DNA from: Fibrobacter sp.
Lineage (GTDB): Bacteria > Fibrobacterota > Fibrobacteria > Fibrobacterales > Fibrobacteraceae
Reading direction: 5' to 3'
DNA length: 64,000 nucleotides
Assembly (NCBI GenBank): GCA_017649565.1
Contig: JAGCGO010000066.1
Span: 1 to 64,000 of the forward strand
Program-made: the position numbers and the translations under genes
Part shown: piece after piece, positions 7,194 through 52,118 of the stretch
Numbering within the stretch: position 1 is the first letter of the stretch
How the letters are laid out: every line of letters starts with the position of its first letter
Notes under the pieces: model-generated
What the model was told of the DNA's origin: nothing
The model's database searches: none
Seen by the model: the letters and a program-made list of their open reading frames with translations, nothing else

Positions 7194-7326
7194 AGTGGTT
7201 AGGGGTTAGGATCTAGAGGCTAGGATCTAGGGGGGGGATGTTAGACGAGAGACGAGAGACGAGAGGGGAGAGGGGAGAGGGGAGAGATAGTGGTTAGTAA
7301 ACAGTAGGAGGTAGGAAGTAGGAAGA
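7194..7326. repeat. Heptanucleotide-phase repeat array 1
   Basis: Nineteen consecutive 7-bp words in one register fill this stretch between the ABC-class ATPase gene and the IS element. They include AGACGAG three times, AGGGGAG three times, AGGATCT twice, and single words such as AGTGGTT, AGGGGTT, AGGAGGT and AGGAAGT. Most begin with AG. No ORF or RNA is evident. From 7327 to 7378 the sequence is non-coding and ends in AAAAAAGGAGGTCCCCTCC, part of a palindrome broken by the IS. Confidence 0.85.
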
Positions 7327-7378
7327 TGTGCCCGCGTAGGCGCGTATCTCCTCTTGTTCTAAAAAAGGAGGTCCCCTC

Positions 7379-7383
7379 CCCGC
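7379..7383. repeat. Target-site duplication, left (CCCGC)
   Basis: CCCGC directly before the left end of the IS element; identical to 8801-8805. Confidence 0.75.
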
Positions 7384-7416
7384 TGAACTGACCCCAAAAA
7401 GTTGGACATTTTAAAA

Positions 7417-8211
7417 TTAGGATAAAAATGAGTTGCAGACTCGGTATTGCACCGGGCTCATTCCTTTTAACCGCAGTTTTATGCGATTATTATTGTAGTA
7501 TTCGATATATTTCCTTAACTCCTGTTTAAAATGTTCCATGTTCTTGAATGTGTTCGGGTAAAGGAGTTCCGACTTCATTATCCCGAAAAAATTTTCCATC
7601 ATGGCATTGTCTAGGCAATTACCCCGGCGACTCATGCTTTGGATAATGCCGTGCTGCTTGAGAGACATTTGGTAGTTGTAGTGCTGGTAATGCCATCCTT
7701 GATCGGAATGCAACACCAGGCCTTTCTTTATATCCCTGGTTGCATAGGCTTTTTCCAACATCTTCATGACCATATTGAGGTTTGGCCGGTCAGATAAAGT
7801 ATAGCACACGATTTCTCCGTTGTACATGTCCAATATCGGCGACAGGTAACACCAGCTTCCGTTGATGTCTACCTGTGTCACATCGGTGGTCCATTTCTGG
7901 TTTGGCGCAGTAGCGCTGAAGTTCCTGTTCAATATGTTCTTGGCGACCAGTCCTGTCTCCCCTCGATAGGAGTGGTACGAACAGCGCTTGCGAACATTTT
8001 TCAGGCATTCCTCTTTCATGAGTCTGTAGACAGTCTTGTGATTCACCTTGAACCCCTCGTTGCGAAGCTGCATCGTAATGCGACGATAACCGTACCGGCC
8101 TTTATTCTCCGCATGAACAGCCTTTATTCTCGCCCGTTCGGTTTCGTAGCGATCCGTTCTCTCTTGAATATGGTAATAGTAGGTAGAACGAGACAGACCG
8201 CTAGCTTTCAA
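7417..8211 (-). CDS. IS3-family transposase OrfB (DDE integrase domain)
   Basis: The catalytic part of the transposase, 264 residues from the first ATG. It carries an HTH_21-like start (SRSTYYYHIQERTDRYETERARIKAVHAENKGRYGYRRI) and the rve integrase core: WTTDVTQVDI with the first Asp, LHSDQGWHYQ with the second, and SRRGNCLDNAMMENFFGIMKSE with the Glu. The frame stays open upstream of this ATG to at least 8306 and is in the -1 phase relative to orfA, so the working protein is probably an OrfAB fusion made by frameshifting at the A7 run (8307-8313). Confidence 0.9.
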   Translation of the reverse strand: MKASGLSRSTYYYHIQERTDRYETERARIKAVHAENKGRYGYRRITMQLRNEGFKVNHKTVYRLMKEECLKNVRKRCSYHSYRGETGLVAKNILNRNFSATAPNQKWTTDVTQVDINGSWCYLSPILDMYNGEIVCYTLSDRPNLNMVMKMLEKAYATRDIKKGLVLHSDQGWHYQHYNYQMSLKQHGIIQSMSRRGNCLDNAMMENFFGIMKSELLYPNTFKNMEHFKQELRKYIEYYNNNRIKLRLKGMSPVQYRVCNSFLS

Positions 8212-8237
8212 CAGGTGTCTTAAGGCATGCTCGGAGC

Positions 8238-8759
8238 TCAGTCTTCGGACGATTTCGGCCCTACACCGAACATCCTGGTACTTTCTTCTTGGTCTAGGGC
8301 CTTCAATTTTTTTAAGTAGGCGACCTCTGCTTTAAGGTACTGGTTCTCCTCCCTGAGCAGTTCGAGTTCGGTCATCCCGTCACGTTTTTTCTTCGGTCTT
8401 GGCATCCTTGGTTGGCCCCTTTGAGGCTTTTTGTCTTTAAGATTGTCATAGCCGCCTTGTCGAAATTTTTTCAGCCAATCTTTGAGCGTATGTCTGCTTA
8501 TTTCGAACTTGGCGCATGTTTCCACATAAGATAGCGATTTCTTTATGACCGAATCAACCGCGGCCTTTCTTGTTTTCCAATCTGTAGGACGCCCTATGCG
8601 GGGCTTGACTTGGAATATGCCGGTAAGATGATACATCCGGCACCTATGCTTGACGTCTCGCTCTGAAAGACCCACAATTCTTGATATGGACCTAGGATTT
8701 ACGCCTTCCTTGCATAAATCAAAGGCTTTTTGCCATTCAGCTTCTTTATAGTGATTCAT
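8238..8759 (-). CDS. IS3-family transposase OrfA (helix-turn-helix)
   Basis: A 173-residue DNA-binding subunit. Two helix-turn-helix-like segments are visible (NPRSISRIVGLSERDVKHRCR and SYVETCAKFEISRHTLKDWLKKFRQGGYDNL). A basic Pro-rich linker and a leucine-zipper-like coiled coil follow (MTELELLREENQYLKAEVAYLKKLKAL), as is usual for IS3 OrfA. It starts 25 bases inside the right end of the element. Confidence 0.9.
   Translation of the reverse strand: MNHYKEAEWQKAFDLCKEGVNPRSISRIVGLSERDVKHRCRMYHLTGIFQVKPRIGRPTDWKTRKAAVDSVIKKSLSYVETCAKFEISRHTLKDWLKKFRQGGYDNLKDKKPQRGQPRMPRPKKKRDGMTELELLREENQYLKAEVAYLKKLKALDQEESTRMFGVGPKSSED
8307..8313 (-). promoter_or_regulatory. Probable -1 frameshift heptamer of the IS (A AAA AAA)
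   Basis: On the minus strand orfA reads TTA AAA AAA TTG. The A AAA AAA heptamer is in the phase required for a -1 slip, and the -1 frame is open from there through orfB. IS3-family elements commonly make OrfAB by such slippage on A-rich heptamers. Confidence 0.65.
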
Positions 8760-8800
8760 AAATCCTCAAAAGTTGTGTCCAACTTTTGGGGTTCACATCA

Positions 8801-8805
8801 CCCGC
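8801..8805. repeat. Target-site duplication, right (CCCGC)
   Basis: CCCGC directly after the right end of the IS, matching 7379-7383. Beyond it, to 8978, is non-coding DNA with a hairpin around GGGCTAAAGCCC (8828-8839; outer arms TCACT/AGTGA). Confidence 0.75.
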
Positions 8806-8978
8806 AAGGGGGATCATGGATCACTAAGGGCTAAAGCCCAAGTGACCAAAGAGATCAAGTCGGGGAAGACATATAGTATTCCCCCCATTTTTCGGCTTGG
8901 TTTCTAAACTTTTGCAAAAAAATTATATAAATTCATAGAAAACTTTGTATTTTAAGAACAAACAAACAGGAGCAATCC

Positions 8979-38132: not shown

Positions 38133-38591
38133 ATGATGAAGGAACAACTCTTCAATTTGATTGGAAAACACCGATTCAATATTTCCATCTATACGAAGGA
38201 ATTGTTTGAAAGGCGTTGCCAGGAAGAAATTATCCGCAGCGACGAGGACAAGACCTCGTTCGTGTACCTCGAGTTCAACTTTGAACAGATCGCCCGCAAG
38301 CTCGGGAACGAAGACGACAACAGCAAGTTCTGGGAAATATTCCTGGAAGCCCTGGCCAAGAACAACAGGGGATGCGATATCATCGGATTTCTCGAGAACG
38401 AGGCCGGGTTGGGCATGTTGCTCCTCGATTCCAAGGTGGAAGGATGGATGCGAGTCAAGGGCCGTATCGAGCAGACCGCCAGCATAAACAACTTCCCCCA
38501 CGTGTCAAGCATCCTCTCGACCCTCGTGACTCCCATTGTCTATCCCTCCTGCATACAGGACTTGCAGCAAAAGGCGGCAGCGAATCCATGA
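38133..38591 (+). CDS. Unknown soluble protein, 152 residues
   Basis: A 152-residue soluble alpha/beta protein (MMKEQLFNLIGKHRFNISIY at the start) that I cannot place in a family. It has an acidic first half and no signal peptide or TM helix. Its stop overlaps the start of the glycosyltransferase gene (ATGA), so the two are translationally coupled and may act in the same process. Starts 28 bases from the divergent DUF4954 gene. Confidence 0.7.
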   Translation: MMKEQLFNLIGKHRFNISIYTKELFERRCQEEIIRSDEDKTSFVYLEFNFEQIARKLGNEDDNSKFWEIFLEALAKNNRGCDIIGFLENEAGLGMLLLDSKVEGWMRVKGRIEQTASINNFPHVSSILSTLVTPIVYPSCIQDLQQKAAANP

Positions 38592-39841
38592 AAGTTCTGG
38601 TCATCGGTTCCGTCTACCCCCGGTTCCAGGAAGACGCCGAAGTCCCCTGGCTCCGCACGTCCGTCGCACACCTCAAGCAGGCCGGCGTCGAAATCCAGGT
38701 ACTCGCCCCGGCATACAAGGGACTGCGAGACCACGAAATAGACGGCACCCCCGTACACCGTTTCCGCTACGCGCCGGCAAGCTGGGAAATCCTCACGCAC
38801 GAAGAAGGCGCCCCCTCCAAGATGGCAAGCAAGCCCTGGCTGCAGCTTCTCGCCATCCCCTACATCATAAACGGCTTTTTCAGGTGCCTTTCTATCTGCC
38901 GCAAGTGGAAGCCCGACGTAATCCATGCGCACTGGCCTTTCCCGCACGCCTATATCGCGCTCGGCGCATCGAAGCTGCTGCGCATCCCGCTGGTGCTGAA
39001 CTTCCACGGGGCCGAACTGTTGCTCATCCGCAAGAAGAAATGGGTGAAGCCGCTGCTGAAATTCGCCATTGGACAGGCACGCGCCGTGTTCGCGAACTCA
39101 AGCTTTACCGCAAGCAAGATCAAGGCCATCCGCAACGTAGACGTGGAATGGAGCCCGTATGGGACTACTTTAGACGAGAGACGAGAGACGAGAGACGAGA
39201 GAGAAGGCTCGAGGCTCGAGGCTCGAGGCACGGGAAACGAGAGAGAAGGCTCGGGGCTTGTTCCGCATCCGGTGGACGGCAAGTTCAAGATCCTCTTCGT
39301 AGGTAGGCACATCGAGCGCAAGGGAATCTGCTACCTGATCGAATCTGCCAAGATGCTGCCCGCCGACAAGTTCGAGATCCGTATCGTCGGCGTGGGCGAC
39401 CTTACCGAAAAGCTCAAGCAGCAGGCCCTGCAGTACCCGCACGTCGTGTTCACGGGCAAGCTTTCGCCGGAAGACCTCGCGCATGAATACCGCACCGCCA
39501 ACGTATTTGTCTTGCCCGCCATTGTCGACCACAAGGGAGACACCGAAGGCCTTGGCGTCGTGCTCATCGAGGCGATGGAACTCGGGCTGCCGGTTGTCGC
39601 AAGCAACGTGGGCGGAATCCCCGACGTCGTCGTCGACGGCGATTCCGGCATTCTCGTTCCCGAGAAGGACCCCGAGGCACTGGCCAACGCGTTCAAGCGC
39701 CTCGCCAGCGACCGCGCGCTCGTCATGAGCCTGCTCGAAGGCGCCCGCAAGCGCATTGCCGAATGCTTTACGTGGAACGGCATCATCAAGCGCCAGATAG
39801 AAGTTTATAACAAGGTCATCAACAGGCGGAAAGGCTCATAG
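38588..39841 (+). CDS. GT4-family glycosyltransferase with repeat-coded insertion
   Basis: A 417-residue GT-B glycosyltransferase of family 4, expected to transfer sugar from a nucleotide-sugar to a lipid-linked or surface glycan. The N-terminal domain opens with MKVLVIGSVYPRFQEDAEVPWLRTSVAHLKQAG and holds HAHWPFPHAYIA; the C-terminal domain has KILFVGRHIERKGICYLIESAK and the donor-binding EGLGVVLIEAMELGLPVVASNVGGIPDVV. Residues about 196-223 (DERRETRDEREGSRLEARG ...) are encoded by twelve 7-bp repeat words and sit in the linker between the domains, where relatives have only a short loop. The frame is intact, so the protein is probably functional. Confidence 0.85.
   Translation: MKVLVIGSVYPRFQEDAEVPWLRTSVAHLKQAGVEIQVLAPAYKGLRDHEIDGTPVHRFRYAPASWEILTHEEGAPSKMASKPWLQLLAIPYIINGFFRCLSICRKWKPDVIHAHWPFPHAYIALGASKLLRIPLVLNFHGAELLLIRKKKWVKPLLKFAIGQARAVFANSSFTASKIKAIRNVDVEWSPYGTTLDERRETRDEREGSRLEARGTGNEREGSGLVPHPVDGKFKILFVGRHIERKGICYLIESAKMLPADKFEIRIVGVGDLTEKLKQQALQYPHVVFTGKLSPEDLAHEYRTANVFVLPAIVDHKGDTEGLGVVLIEAMELGLPVVASNVGGIPDVVVDGDSGILVPEKDPEALANAFKRLASDRALVMSLLEGARKRIAECFTWNGIIKRQIEVYNKVINRRKGS
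39172..39255. repeat. Heptanucleotide-phase array 6, inside a glycosyltransferase gene
   Basis: Twelve 7-bp words in one register: AGACGAG four times, AGAGAAG twice, GCTCGAG three times, GCACGGG, AAACGAG and GCTCGGG. The total of 84 bp is a multiple of 3, so the reading frame is kept. Confidence 0.85.
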
Positions 39842-48417: not shown

Positions 48418-49413
48418 TTAGCGGTTCTCCAAAAGTTCCTGGATACGAGTCAAGTCGTCCATGGAATAGTAACTGATGACGATGGTGCCCTTGGACTGGT
48501 CGGACGCACTCGGGTTCAGCTCGACCTTGGTTCCGAAATAGCCTTCGAGCTTGGACTCGAAATTCTTGAGGTCGGCACTCAGTTCCGGCTTCGGCTTCTT
48601 TACGGCCGGACTTGTCGAGGTTGTTGAAGCGTCGGCCCCTTCGGCAAGCTCAGGGTCCTTGCCAAGGTCGGTGAGCTTGTCGAACCGCTCGTCTCTCGTC
48701 TGATAAATATCCTCCCCGCGGATGACGGCTTCGATCTGTCGGACGTTCAGTCCTTCGTCGATAATCCTCTTGGCGAGGCTTTCGGGATCTTCGACCTTGT
48801 CGCTGCAGAGGGCACGTGCGGCGCCGCTGTTCAGCTTGCCTTCTACTATCCAAGTGAGCACTTGTTCCGGAAGCTTCAGAAGGCGGAGCGAGTTCGTGAT
48901 GGCGGAGCGGGACTTACCAACAATCTTGGCCAAATCTTCGTGGGTATAGCCGTGATTATCGATCAACTGTTGATAAGATCTTGAAACTTCGACCGGGTTC
49001 AGGTCGACGCGCTGGATGTTCTCGATGAGGGCCCATTCGGCCATCGTCTTGTCGTCGAGGTTTTCGTAGACCTGCGCCTTGATGACCGAAAGACCGGCGA
49101 GCTTTGTCGCGCGGGTACGGCGTTCACCGCTGATGATCTGGTAACGGTCGCCCACCTTGCGGACGACGATCGGCTGGATCAGGCCGTGCTGTTCGATGGT
49201 CTCGGCGAGTTCCACGAGCTCGTCGTCGCTAAAAAATTTGCGCGGCTGGAACGGGTTCGGGTCGATGAGGTTGACATCGATTTCGACAATCCTGTCCTTT
49301 TCGTTTTCCTGGGCCGGCGCGGAAGCTTCAGTGGGTATGATGCCACTGTTCAAGGAATGGTCCTTGAGAATGTCGGAGAGGCCGCGGCCGAGAGCGAGAG
49401 ACTTTTTTCCCAT
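48418..49413 (-). CDS. parB: Chromosome partitioning protein ParB
   Basis: A 331-residue ParB, the CTP-dependent clamp that loads at parS. The N-terminal start MGKKSLALGRGLSDIL, the CTP-binding ISGERRTRATKLAG, ENIQRVDLNPVE and the helix-turn-helix YTHEDLAKIVGKSRSAITNSLRLLKLPE are all present, and the C-terminal dimer domain begins near residue 275. The linker carries two small repeat-derived pieces: TRDERF (about 237-242, two heptad words) and DPELAEG (about 253-260, a REP-like palindrome). AAGGA precedes the ATG. Its parS sites lie 1.6-8 kb upstream. Confidence 0.95.
   Translation of the reverse strand: MGKKSLALGRGLSDILKDHSLNSGIIPTEASAPAQENEKDRIVEIDVNLIDPNPFQPRKFFSDDELVELAETIEQHGLIQPIVVRKVGDRYQIISGERRTRATKLAGLSVIKAQVYENLDDKTMAEWALIENIQRVDLNPVEVSRSYQQLIDNHGYTHEDLAKIVGKSRSAITNSLRLLKLPEQVLTWIVEGKLNSGAARALCSDKVEDPESLAKRIIDEGLNVRQIEAVIRGEDIYQTRDERFDKLTDLGKDPELAEGADASTTSTSPAVKKPKPELSADLKNFESKLEGYFGTKVELNPSASDQSKGTIVISYYSMDDLTRIQELLENR
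48637..48655. repeat. REP-like palindrome inside parB
   Basis: CCCTTCGGCAAGCTCAGGG, sharing the core TTCGGCAAGCTCAG with 5909-5933 in the ABC-class ATPase gene; in frame in the ParB linker. Confidence 0.6.
48688..48701. repeat. Two heptad words inside parB
   Basis: CTCGTCT CTCGTCT, the reverse complement of AGACGAG twice, in the linker of ParB about 30 bp from the REP-like palindrome. Two units alone could be chance; the neighbourhood makes a repeat origin plausible. Confidence 0.4.
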
Positions 49414-49477: not shown

Positions 49478-50263
49478 TTATTTTTCCTTGTTCAGGATTT
49501 CTTCGGCGAGTTTCATGTAGGCCTGCGAGCCGCTGCTCTGCACGTCGTACAGGATGACCGGCTTGCCGTGGGACGGGGCCTCGCTCAACTTGACGTTGCG
49601 CGGGATGACCGACTGGAACACCGTATCGGAAAGGTTCTCGCGAACTTCCTCGGCGACCTGCTTGCAGAGACTCAGGCGGGCGTCGTACATGGTGAGCAGC
49701 GTTCCCTCGATCTTGAGGTCGCCATTCAGGTTCTTCTGCACTTCGCGGATTGTCTTGAAAAGTTCGGTCATACCCTGCAGGGCGTAGTATTCGCACTGCA
49801 CCGGGATGAGCACGCTGGTGGCGGCGGTCAGCACGTTGAGCGTGAGGAGGTTCAGGCTCGGGGGCGCGTCGATGATGATGAACTCGAATGCCTGCTTGAG
49901 GATGTTGATAACTCTTTCGAGACGGCGTTCACGGCTCATGGCGTTCACGAGCTCGATTTCCATCACGGCCAGGTCCGGTCCGGACGGGATGAGCTTCAGG
50001 AAATCCAGCGGCGTGTCGAGAATGGCAGGCTTGATGGTTTCGTAGCTGAGGTTGTCGGGATTGCCGGCCAGGTTCAGGACTTCGTGGATATCTTCGTCCT
50101 GCGCCTCGTTGAAACCGAGACCCTGGGAAGCGTTGCCCTGAGGGTCCATGTCGATAAGAAGGGTCTTCTTTTCGAGAGCGGCAAAACTTGCGGCCAGGTT
50201 CACGGCCGTCGTGGTCTTGCCCACGCCGCCCTTCTGGTTACAGATCGCTATTACTTTACTCAT
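49478..50263 (-). CDS. parA: Chromosome partitioning ATPase ParA
   Basis: A 261-residue ParA/Soj ATPase that drives separation of ParB-parS complexes. Deviant Walker A is QKGGVGKTTTAVNLAA (residues 10-25), Walker A' LLIDMDPQGNASQGLG, and Walker B FIIIDAPPSLNLLTLN. It overlaps rsmG by four bases and precedes parB by 64 bases, where TTTATATATTAATC may give parB an extra promoter. Confidence 0.96.
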   Translation of the reverse strand: MSKVIAICNQKGGVGKTTTAVNLAASFAALEKKTLLIDMDPQGNASQGLGFNEAQDEDIHEVLNLAGNPDNLSYETIKPAILDTPLDFLKLIPSGPDLAVMEIELVNAMSRERRLERVINILKQAFEFIIIDAPPSLNLLTLNVLTAATSVLIPVQCEYYALQGMTELFKTIREVQKNLNGDLKIEGTLLTMYDARLSLCKQVAEEVRENLSDTVFQSVIPRNVKLSEAPSHGKPVILYDVQSSGSQAYMKLAEEILNKEK

Positions 50264-50994
50264 TCGTTACCTCGAGTGACTAAGGCGTAAACTTGTTCTT
50301 CTTGGGGTAGTGCATATTTATATATGTGTACCGCCGGGTCGTTTTCCAAGTGAACGATATTGTTGAAACTTTTTAGGGTGAGGAACGTCCCGCCCTTCTT
50401 GAGTCCGGGTTGGGCACGTTCCCAGTCGTTTTCGAAAGTCGAGAGGGCGCGGCAGCTGATAAAGTCCAGGTCCGAAAGGCCGGAGGTCTCGAAGCGCTTG
50501 CCCACGACAGTCAGGTTTTGGAGTTGGAGCTTTTCCTTGGCGTAGTTCATGAACTGCACGCGCATGTTGCGGGGCTCGACCGCATAAAACTGGATTTCGG
50601 GCATCACGATGGCGAGCGGGAAAACCGGACAACCCGCACCCGCACCCATATCAGCCCAGCGTTTAGACGAGAGACGAGAGACGAGAGACGAGAGATTGTT
50701 TGAGGGTAAACCATTATTGGACGATGATTTTTCCCTCTCGTCTTTCGTCTGTAGGACCGCAGGTCCGTTCTCTCGTCTAATATATATATAGGGTACCAAC
50801 GAGTCGGCGATGTGGCGGCTGAGGATTTTTTCGGAATCTTTCGTCGAAATCAGGTTGCCGAACTGCTTGGTCTCCACTACCAAATCGGCATACAGGTAGA
50901 GCCGTTCAGTCGTCTCCTTGGACAGCTGTACGCCTTTCTCTGACAAAAATTGACAGAATATTTCCTGTTGCCTGGTATCTTCCGATGGTCTCAT
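50260..50994 (-). CDS. rsmG: 16S rRNA methyltransferase RsmG with repeat-coded insertion
   Basis: A 244-residue RsmG (GidB), which makes m7G527 in 16S rRNA. The N-terminal part has the HIADSLVP motif and the SAM-binding motif WADMGAGAGCPVFPLAI, followed by EPRNMRVQFMNYAKEKL and DFISCRALSTF. Between the two motifs, residues about 74-110 (IYIRRENGPAVLQTKDEREK ... LSSLVSRLSSK) are encoded by a heptad repeat array in place of the usual short loop. The frame is intact; E. coli RsmG has 207 residues. A parS-type site lies seven bases before the ATG, with no Shine-Dalgarno. First gene of rsmG-parA-parB. Confidence 0.93.
   Translation of the reverse strand: MRPSEDTRQQEIFCQFLSEKGVQLSKETTERLYLYADLVVETKQFGNLISTKDSEKILSRHIADSLVPYIYIRRENGPAVLQTKDEREKSSSNNGLPSNNLSSLVSRLSSKRWADMGAGAGCPVFPLAIVMPEIQFYAVEPRNMRVQFMNYAKEKLQLQNLTVVGKRFETSGLSDLDFISCRALSTFENDWERAQPGLKKGGTFLTLKSFNNIVHLENDPAVHIYKYALPQEEQVYALVTRGNE
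50665..50776. repeat. Heptanucleotide-phase array 7, inside rsmG, with inverted ends
   Basis: Sixteen 7-bp steps in one register. The left end has AGACGAG four times; the right end has CTCTCGT, CTTTCGT and CTCTCGT, near-complementary to the left words. The perfect palindrome GGACCGCAGGTCC (50754-50766) lies near the right end. The middle is unrelated sequence but keeps the phase. Confidence 0.8.
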
Positions 50995-51000
50995 TAAGTA

Positions 51001-51016
51001 TGTTCCACGTGAAACG
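51001..51016. promoter_or_regulatory. parS: parS-type site 1
   Basis: TGTTCCACGTGAAACG, one arm change from the consensus TGTTTCACGTGAAACA. It is seven bases upstream of the rsmG start and may let ParB affect the operon. Confidence 0.85.
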
Positions 51017-51202
51017 TCTTGTGGATATCTGACGTAACGTTCCCTAATTTAGAATATCTTACTAACAAAAAGGCCGCCGGAAATCCGGCAGACCGAAAAT
51101 TTTAAAAATATTTGTGGATAATATTTTAGTAAATGTTGAGAAAATGTTGAATCTTGTGATTTATCTATCAACACCGCCGACAGCGAAAAATAGGCCCAAC
51201 TT

Positions 51203-51218
51203 TGTTTCACGTGAAACT
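51203..51218. promoter_or_regulatory. parS: parS-type site 2
   Basis: TGTTTCACGTGAAACT; the central 14 bp are perfectly palindromic and match the consensus. Ends at the stop codon of the leftward gene. Confidence 0.92.
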
Positions 51219-52118
51219 TTATCGGCCCACTTTTATAATATGTTCGCTCTTGGCGGGGCGGCCGAGGAGGTCGAAATGTCTTACCTTTTCTGGAATGGTT
51301 GCCGGGCGGACCTTGCGACGGATCGATGTGGTGGGCTCATTGGCGAGAACATAAAACCACTTTGCATCGTTATTGCTGAAGGATACAATAAAGCCGTTTT
51401 CCGTGTTGGTTATGGTGTCTTGGTATTCGTCAATGATGTTTTCAAGGTTTTGAAATGTTGAATCATTTTTTGGGTATTCGTAAACAGTGACGTTGCAGAT
51501 ATTTTCATTGTTGGCGTCAGGTGTAGTGATGGAAATATTTTTTGCCGCTTCTATTTTTTTTAAGGTATCGTTTTTCAAAAAAGTCATTGTCATATCATCT
51601 ATAGTAAAAACTCTGTTTTGTATGATGCGGATATAGGCAAAAACGGAAGAATCAAGGGATGCGATTTCTTCATCTGTTAAAGTGTCTTTCATCATATGGT
51701 AAGAAATGAGGGTAGAAGAATCTCCTTTAAGGGAAGTGCGTTCTTCTTCGGACAATATGCCATCCACATAGATTGTTCTATTTGTTGACGTATCTGTTTT
51801 TACGGTAACAATTTCAATGGGCGCGTATTCGCAATCGCCGTTGCATTTAACAATGCTGTTGGGATTGTCATTTTCAATGGGTACGTATTCACAGTCATCG
51901 CCATAGCATCTGACCGTGCTGATGAGGTTGCCGTTCTTATAATAAAACTTTGATTCCGAATAATAAACCAGGGAACCGAAGTAATTTGCCGCATAGAGGC
52001 TATCGAGGCGGTATTCATCAAAATTCCAGAAAGATACCGAAAGGCGCATGTAGTCGCGGCAGCCGGCGGCGAAAACGTCCAATGTCAGAATGGCGAGAAT
52101 AAGGATGAGTTTTTTCAT
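51219..52118 (-). CDS. Secreted protein with C-terminal sorting-like tag (paralogue 1)
   Basis: A 299-residue exported protein, signal MKKLILILAILTLDVFA. The body is acidic, rich in Asp/Tyr/Ser, with a short internal duplication (DDCEYVPIENDNPNSIV and GDCEYAPIEIVTV). The last ~40 residues (SIRRKVRPATIPEKVRHFDL, LGRPAKSEHIIKV) closely match those of the next gene and resemble type-IX-secretion sorting ends. No family recognised. AT-richer than housekeeping genes. Lies inside the parS zone. Confidence 0.7.
   Translation of the reverse strand: MKKLILILAILTLDVFAAGCRDYMRLSVSFWNFDEYRLDSLYAANYFGSLVYYSESKFYYKNGNLISTVRCYGDDCEYVPIENDNPNSIVKCNGDCEYAPIEIVTVKTDTSTNRTIYVDGILSEEERTSLKGDSSTLISYHMMKDTLTDEEIASLDSSVFAYIRIIQNRVFTIDDMTMTFLKNDTLKKIEAAKNISITTPDANNENICNVTVYEYPKNDSTFQNLENIIDEYQDTITNTENGFIVSFSNNDAKWFYVLANEPTTSIRRKVRPATIPEKVRHFDLLGRPAKSEHIIKVGR

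Follow-up and report, generated by a model that had tools for sequence, protein, structure and literature searches.

The rsmG (gidB) gene of this Fibrobacter genome contains a palindromic element of about 116 bp, one of the copies of a repeat that is dispersed through the genus and restricted to it, that resides in frame in unrelated genes and that is predicted to fold strongly. The reading frame of rsmG remains open, and the spot occupied by the element holds a different repeat insert in almost every species of the genus. The explanation that we favour, and hold to be likely, is that rsmG contains a complete copy of a dispersed palindromic Fibrobacter repeat, non-autonomous and tolerated in a loop of the protein, where cassettes are exchanged; the element itself is probably selfish DNA that is tolerated in surface loops. 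The window mentioned below is the whole stretch of 64,000 nucleotides that was analysed.

rsmG is located at 50260-50994 on the minus strand and codes for a protein of 244 amino acids, identified as the 16S rRNA methyltransferase G by its open reading frame, a single Pfam match (GidB, 112 bits against a cut-off of 27), matches to the solved structures 1XDZ (from B. subtilis) and 1JSX (from E. coli) and an AlphaFold model. The order on the DNA is rsmG, then parA (49478-50263), then parB (48418-49413), and six parS-like sites (TGTTTCACGTGAAAC and variants, at 51001, 51203, 52933, 53979, 55421 and 57203) lie around these genes, which suggests that the replication origin is nearby. The insert, whose sequence is IYIRRENGPAVLQTKDEREKSSSNNGLPSNNLSSLVSRLSSKR, corresponds to a gap in the alignment with 1XDZ (query residues 72-114, chain residues 66-75), a position that, judging from this alignment, lies in the turn that leads from the N-terminal helices into strand 1 of the methyltransferase fold. 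The conserved blocks on both sides are separated by 43 amino acids, against 8 in the shortest congeners, in agreement with the 37 or so extra residues counted in the earlier note. In the AlphaFold model, pLDDT values are mostly above 90 in the core (pTM 0.84) and below 50 at insert residues 77-99, followed by a short helix at 101-108; this confident core with a low-confidence insert is in line with a tolerated surface protrusion. The DMGAGAG block (the SAM motif) is kept in all aligned RsmG rows and, because the core stays conserved, the enzyme probably remains active, its protrusion being disordered or weakly helical. A second rsmG, 74% identical, is present on another contig of the same bin (G000:C13:2373-3071), and it probably belongs to another species (the bin has 6.1% contamination) rather than being a paralogue.

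The inserted element as a whole, delimited by its fold and by related copies elsewhere, extends over 50663-50780 and has inverted ends, TTAGACGAGAGA and TCTCTCGTCTAA. Its array end (50665-50695, plus strand) is made of four AGACGAG heptads and an additional AGA (4.4 units, 100% matches), coding for LSSLVSRLSS in the rsmG sense, and is separated from the other repeat end by a unique filler (50696-50736) that varies from copy to copy. On the plus strand, two inverted heptads, CTCGTCT TTCGTCT (50737-50750), are then followed by a GTAG-footed hairpin (50751-50770), composed of GTAG, GGACC (50754-50758), a GCA loop, GGTCC (50762-50766) and a GTTC foot, and by the terminal TCTCGTCT heptad of the hairpin end (50771-50778). 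Read in the rsmG sense, the recurrent anatomy is T-AGACGARAGAACG-[stem-loop-stem]-CTACAGACGARAGACGARAGA-filler-(CTCGTCT)n-AA. The near-complementary ends described in the earlier note are real, the inverted heptads at 50737-50750 and 50772-50778 lying opposite the AGACGAG array, and so, as a prediction, is the long RNA hairpin: the mRNA-sense insert folds to -50.1 kcal/mol, against -26.2 ± 3.6 for shuffled sequences (z -6.6; no shuffle out of 200 reached this value), and its outer stem of 12 pairs, TTAGACGAGAGA/TCTCTCGTCTAA, corresponds to the terminal inverted repeats. The perfect 13-bp palindrome that had been described, GGACCGCAGGTCC, has GGACCTGCGGTCC as its reverse complement and is really a 5-bp stem (GGACC/GGTCC) with a GCA loop, and the 16 heptad steps do not hold either, 112 nt being 16 x 7 by coincidence. 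A fixed heptad register across the whole element was rejected, since only the arms are heptad and the filler of about 41 nt is not, and 28 full-length copies have no fixed length modulo 7. A frame-preserving length was likewise discarded as a property of the element: copy lengths modulo 3 are distributed 10/8/10, and therefore the frame is maintained by selection. A search of Rfam with positions 50200-51300 gave zero matches.

Related sequences are abundant in Fibrobacter. The window contains 16 matches to a 14-mer (with two mismatches at most) against 0.63 expected, and 82 exact AGACGAGx3 matches (41 + 41, overlapping ones included) were counted in the whole genome, with none in the reversed control and none in 16 non-Fibrobacter genomes. 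The hairpin signature TCGTCTGTAG-N-TTC-N-TCGTCT occurs 41 times in the same genome and up to 47 times in its relatives, and was found neither in the reversed-pattern control nor outside the genus; the GTAG tetranucleotide foot was confirmed as TCGTCTGTAG-stem-GTTC in the 41 copies of this genome. The stems are hypervariable yet self-complementary: 73 copies contain 55 different inner sequences, and 3.53 of their outer four pairs are paired, against 2.12 when the arms are re-dealt (maximum 2.45 in 2000), with a subset of about 19 copies (GCGAGC-N-GCGAGC or similar) that pairs only at the outer two positions. The loci examined yielded 28 unique full-length copies, 76-170 nt long, and BLAST with the element of the window retrieved near-full-length copies at 72-78% in this genome and in relatives. 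Perfect arrays of at least 21 nt in 1.22 Mb of Fibrobacter DNA are almost exclusively of period 7 (35 arrays; each of the other periods from 1 to 12 has 0 or 1). Arrays with three, four and five units number 3, 18 and 0 in coding sequence and 7, 17 and 2 elsewhere, none exceeding five. Copies are mostly intergenic, although they are also found within coding sequence; the arrays of this genome were taken from sampled stretches chosen by exact arrays or hairpins and, because this sampling is not random, their in-gene share is not a genome-wide estimate.

Many of these sampled arrays are inside long ORFs with Pfam domains around or flanking the array, and in-frame insertion affects at least 10 unrelated genes of this genome. 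Hosts with Pfam support include a glycosyltransferase, TilS, a siroheme synthase (CobA-HemD fusion), HrpA, a NUDIX hydrolase, a topoisomerase (with several arrays), an UvrA-like ATPase, TruB, HrpB and an EF-G-like GTPase, to which RNase HII, recognised through matches to solved structures and its relatives, can be added. The array peptides are RRETRDE or LVSRLSS, depending on the orientation; as seven is coprime to three, an array gives the same seven codons in every frame. AGACGAG arrays contain no stop codon on either strand, which is permissive and not remarkable, given that a rough estimate puts the share of random heptads free of stops on one strand at about 70%. Repeat-built indels were rejected as a general feature of the proteins, since, of about 160 ORFs matched in genome G008 (in 117 kb), rsmG alone had one that reached 8 aa; the glycosyltransferase, with a difference of 7 aa, fell below this threshold. 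That gene (38372-39838) carries a second in-frame array of four AGACGAG heptads (39172-39199, plus strand) between its two domains; our genome (G000) has four units there against a single one in G008, and the frame is preserved by this difference of 21 nt.

Every readable Fibrobacter allele that spans the rsmG site has an insert in frame, between 8 and 85 aa long, and the frame is open in all 46 alleles; the few rows available from outside the genus have a loop of 18-23 aa, counted from HIADSL to DMG with the conserved residues included. Pairwise allele alignments, together with the set of 46 alleles, delimit a hypervariable cassette site (approximately 50656-50791, minus strand) between the codons for HIADSLVP and (K/R)WADMGAGAG. 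The pool of inserts comprises AGACGAR heptads, accompanied or not by the GTAG hairpin, heptads of other kinds (L118 and L119 have the CTCAAAA type, L100 the GAGC type, L121 and L122 GCATTCN and AATTCNN), other hairpins with variable stems (GATCC...GGATGAC, GATTG...CAATGAC and GATCCCC...GGGGATGAC) and short KGNG loops, as in the contrasting allele L020. The earlier note, which considered the insertion notable, was right about a real in-frame insert, but this is not a one-off: rsmG holds just one of the copies of a dispersed element, in a loop that is hypervariable across the genus. That note also held that its point would fail if orthologues without arrays had equally long loops of unrelated sequence. 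This is partly so, because several congeners do carry such loops (52 aa in L083, 53 aa in L089 and 47 aa in L090), and the finding widens rather than vanishes, because most of these loops are themselves other dispersed repeats.

The insert class carries no phylogenetic signal. On a tree of the 46 RsmG rows, built with the insert removed and with five insert classes assigned by simple motif rules, the class changes 23 times; shuffled labels give 24.2 changes, with 62 of 200 shuffles as low as the real tree, and the AGACGAR class undergoes at least nine changes on well-supported branches. L083 has 99% core identity to the gene of the window and an insert of another class. L092 and L119 have nearly identical flanks and unrelated inserts, whereas the inserts of L085 and L096 are 98% identical between flanks that are about 80% identical; these contrasts indicate that the cassettes are exchanged as units. 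An exchange through long homologous tracts in rsmG was rejected for L085 and L096, whose identity drops to about 80% at both edges. The insert of the window is identical at 112 of 112 positions in three alleles that diverge by 2-11% in their rsmG flanks, which could reflect either a recent exchange or selection on the insert.

The RNase HII and TruB sites turn over like that of rsmG. In RNase HII the single variable site, which precedes IAVDGN, is occupied by AGACGAG heptads in G000 and G013, by heptads of the GCTCATA type in G008 and of the CCACTAA type in G010, and by hairpins with variable stems in other genomes. The TruB site follows GEVVEQDE and contains AGACGAG heptads in G000, a ATTGCGAGCGTAGCGAAGCAAT hairpin in G013 and AATTCGG heptads in G002. 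Replacement of one family by another between G000 and G008 was also observed at two intergenic sites (32536 and 109862).

Could the heptads be simple repeats grown in place, from chance AGACGAG-like seeds, by seven-step slips of the polymerase? Over-representation of heptamers has been described in many bacterial genomes, and slippage suggested (PMC4692102, citing Mrazek 2007), and both the excess of period-7 arrays and the glycosyltransferase difference of exactly three units speak for such a process. However, the number of units peaks at four in coding and non-coding sequence, without decay and with none above five, which argues against free slippage; moreover, at dozens of sites the GTAG hairpin is found again together with the paired inverted ends and with conserved framing sequence, something that slippage cannot yield, and whole cassettes are swapped at fixed sites. 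We regard slippage as unlikely for these reasons, and give a somewhat lower chance to a functional insert, whose hairpin or peptide would be useful, for example, by slowing translation, tuning the overlapping rsmG-parA-parB mRNA or binding a partner. The strength of the predicted fold and the conservation of the insert in three alleles with differing flanks favour such a function, but the loops that congeners have at this position are unrelated in sequence and range from 8 to 85 aa, with a class that does not follow the phylogeny, the same elements are present in unrelated genes and between genes, and the inserted peptide is predicted to be disordered.

The GTAG foot, located 5' of a stem-loop as in the GTAG REPs (PMC3733652), together with the A/T-rich edges, would also be compatible with REP sequences mobilised by RAYT, a Y1 tyrosine transposase. 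This possibility appears improbable, since Y1_Tnp was detected in only 5 of the 19 Fibrobacter genomes searched (drafts, in which absence is not absolute) and the stem sequence is not conserved within the family; no Y1_Tnp was found in G003, G006, G008, G010, G012, G013, G015 and G018, which have 8-47 hairpins each, and draft genomes with many hairpins and no Y1 gene lean against RAYT. As for an artefact of assembly or binning, most of the genomes are draft MAGs, and that of the window, with its contamination, has the second rsmG on another contig. Nevertheless, such an origin is barely credible, because an insert identical over 112 nt, between diverged flanks, is present in G013 and in RGIG9997, from another study, the frame is open in 46 of 46 alleles, and several near-complete genomes with few contigs carry inserts of this kind.

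According to the explanation that we favour, a tolerated copy of a dispersed repeat, non-autonomous palindromic copies would spread across the genome, landing between genes and in coding sequence, and those within genes would survive only when their length is a multiple of three, they contain no stop and their peptide falls in a surface loop. The RsmG loop would be a landing and exchange site across the genus, where cassettes would be replaced faster than the flanking gene changes. Copies may be spread in trans, through DNA transposition or through gene conversion, and cassettes may be swapped by short-homology recombination at their AT-rich edge. Entry would take place at A/T-rich spots, and the TATATATA run that rsmG and the EF-G-like gene both contain seems suitable for it; the insert would be neutral or mildly costly, leaving RsmG functional. 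The edges of the elements are indeed rich in A/T (93% at -2 and 80% at -1, against a background of 46%). No filled site could be paired with a clean empty one showing a target-site duplication, the rsmG alleles replacing the whole loop, nor was a transposase or a parent transposon linked to the element. A reverse transcriptase was rejected as the driver: PF00078 is present in only 5 of 19 Fibrobacter genomes and is, therefore, not common to the carriers. More tentatively, and with doubts that outweigh our confidence, an active exchange might swap whole cassettes of unrelated families, in frame at fixed gene sites and also between genes, outpacing the flanks and with the stems being rewritten so that they stay self-complementary.

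The Fibrobacter element works like the Rickettsia palindromic elements (RPEs), to which it is likened here without being filed among them. According to a review (PMC10969869) that covers the work of Ogata (2000, 2002), these are selfish palindromes located in frame inside conserved genes, and Rickettsia is the only genus well known for them; the RPEs share with the Fibrobacter element a short dispersed palindrome (about 100-150 bp, a range that includes the 116 bp found here, with their strong fold), in-frame residence in unrelated conserved genes, a host protein that is apparently used and several families per genus. In contrast, the Fibrobacter element consists of heptad arrays and a variable-stem hairpin, is read in both coding orientations, sits at fixed sites where unrelated families replace each other and is found in the phylum Fibrobacterota. 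The GTAG REPs (PMC3733652) also have GTAG beside a stem-loop and many copies, often 3' of genes and some of them intragenic, whereas in Fibrobacter the stem varies in each copy, the hairpin is placed within heptads and Y1 is absent from most carriers. Heptamer repeats such as GGGAATC in Xanthomonas and GGGGAYT in Nostoc (PMC4692102) or TAACTGA in marine Beggiatoaceae (PMC4679880) are similar in their seven-base units, high copy number, genus specificity and mostly intergenic location. Those of Fibrobacter share the over-representation of 7-nt units, although they do not drift freely in copy number, being capped at four to five units with a peak at four, form inverted pairs with a hairpin and are commonly in frame; the TAACTGA repeats (PMC4679880), unlike them, read stops in frame. 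Finally, MITEs are also small, non-coding and dispersed, with terminal inverted repeats, but neither a target-site duplication nor a parent transposon was identified for the Fibrobacter element. Our literature search found no publication on heptad or palindromic repeats in Fibrobacter.

A free-living genus of the rumen and gut thus does what Rickettsia is well known for, with heptad cassettes that lie in frame in enzymes modifying rRNA and tRNA, in RNase HII, in a topoisomerase and in a translation factor. The genus offers a natural library of insertion-tolerant sites, in which the dozens of alleles of a single enzyme vary chiefly in one loop. Since its array has a set size of four units and does not drift freely, the element also bears on why seven-base repeats abound in bacteria. 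For annotation, such loops should be taken as repeat DNA and not as protein features.

Other repeats accompany those described above. In the glycosyltransferase, the AGACGAG array is followed by a second heptad array, AGGCTCG x3.6 (both within 39172-39229). A second class of variable-stem hairpins (GTCAT-stem...stem'-GATC), present in L083, L089, L105, L108, L255, L259 and others, is read as IPAFAGMT, ARNDK or STSPNGSAQDD and fills the same loops. The EF-G-like GTPase (L236:1692-3746, minus strand) has a charged heptad insert of about 47 residues (DERREPRDERREARDERRETRDE...) between domains II and III, which entered after TATATATA, as in rsmG. The longest array run, of about 60 residues (RDERRE/RDERGE), is encoded at L234:1995-3731 (minus strand), in a predicted protein that had no Pfam match at the threshold used. 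In the window, positions 7243-8906 include about 1.3 kb of transposase-like sequence that is absent in G008, adjoins AGACGAG and AGGGGAG arrays and looks like an IS element.
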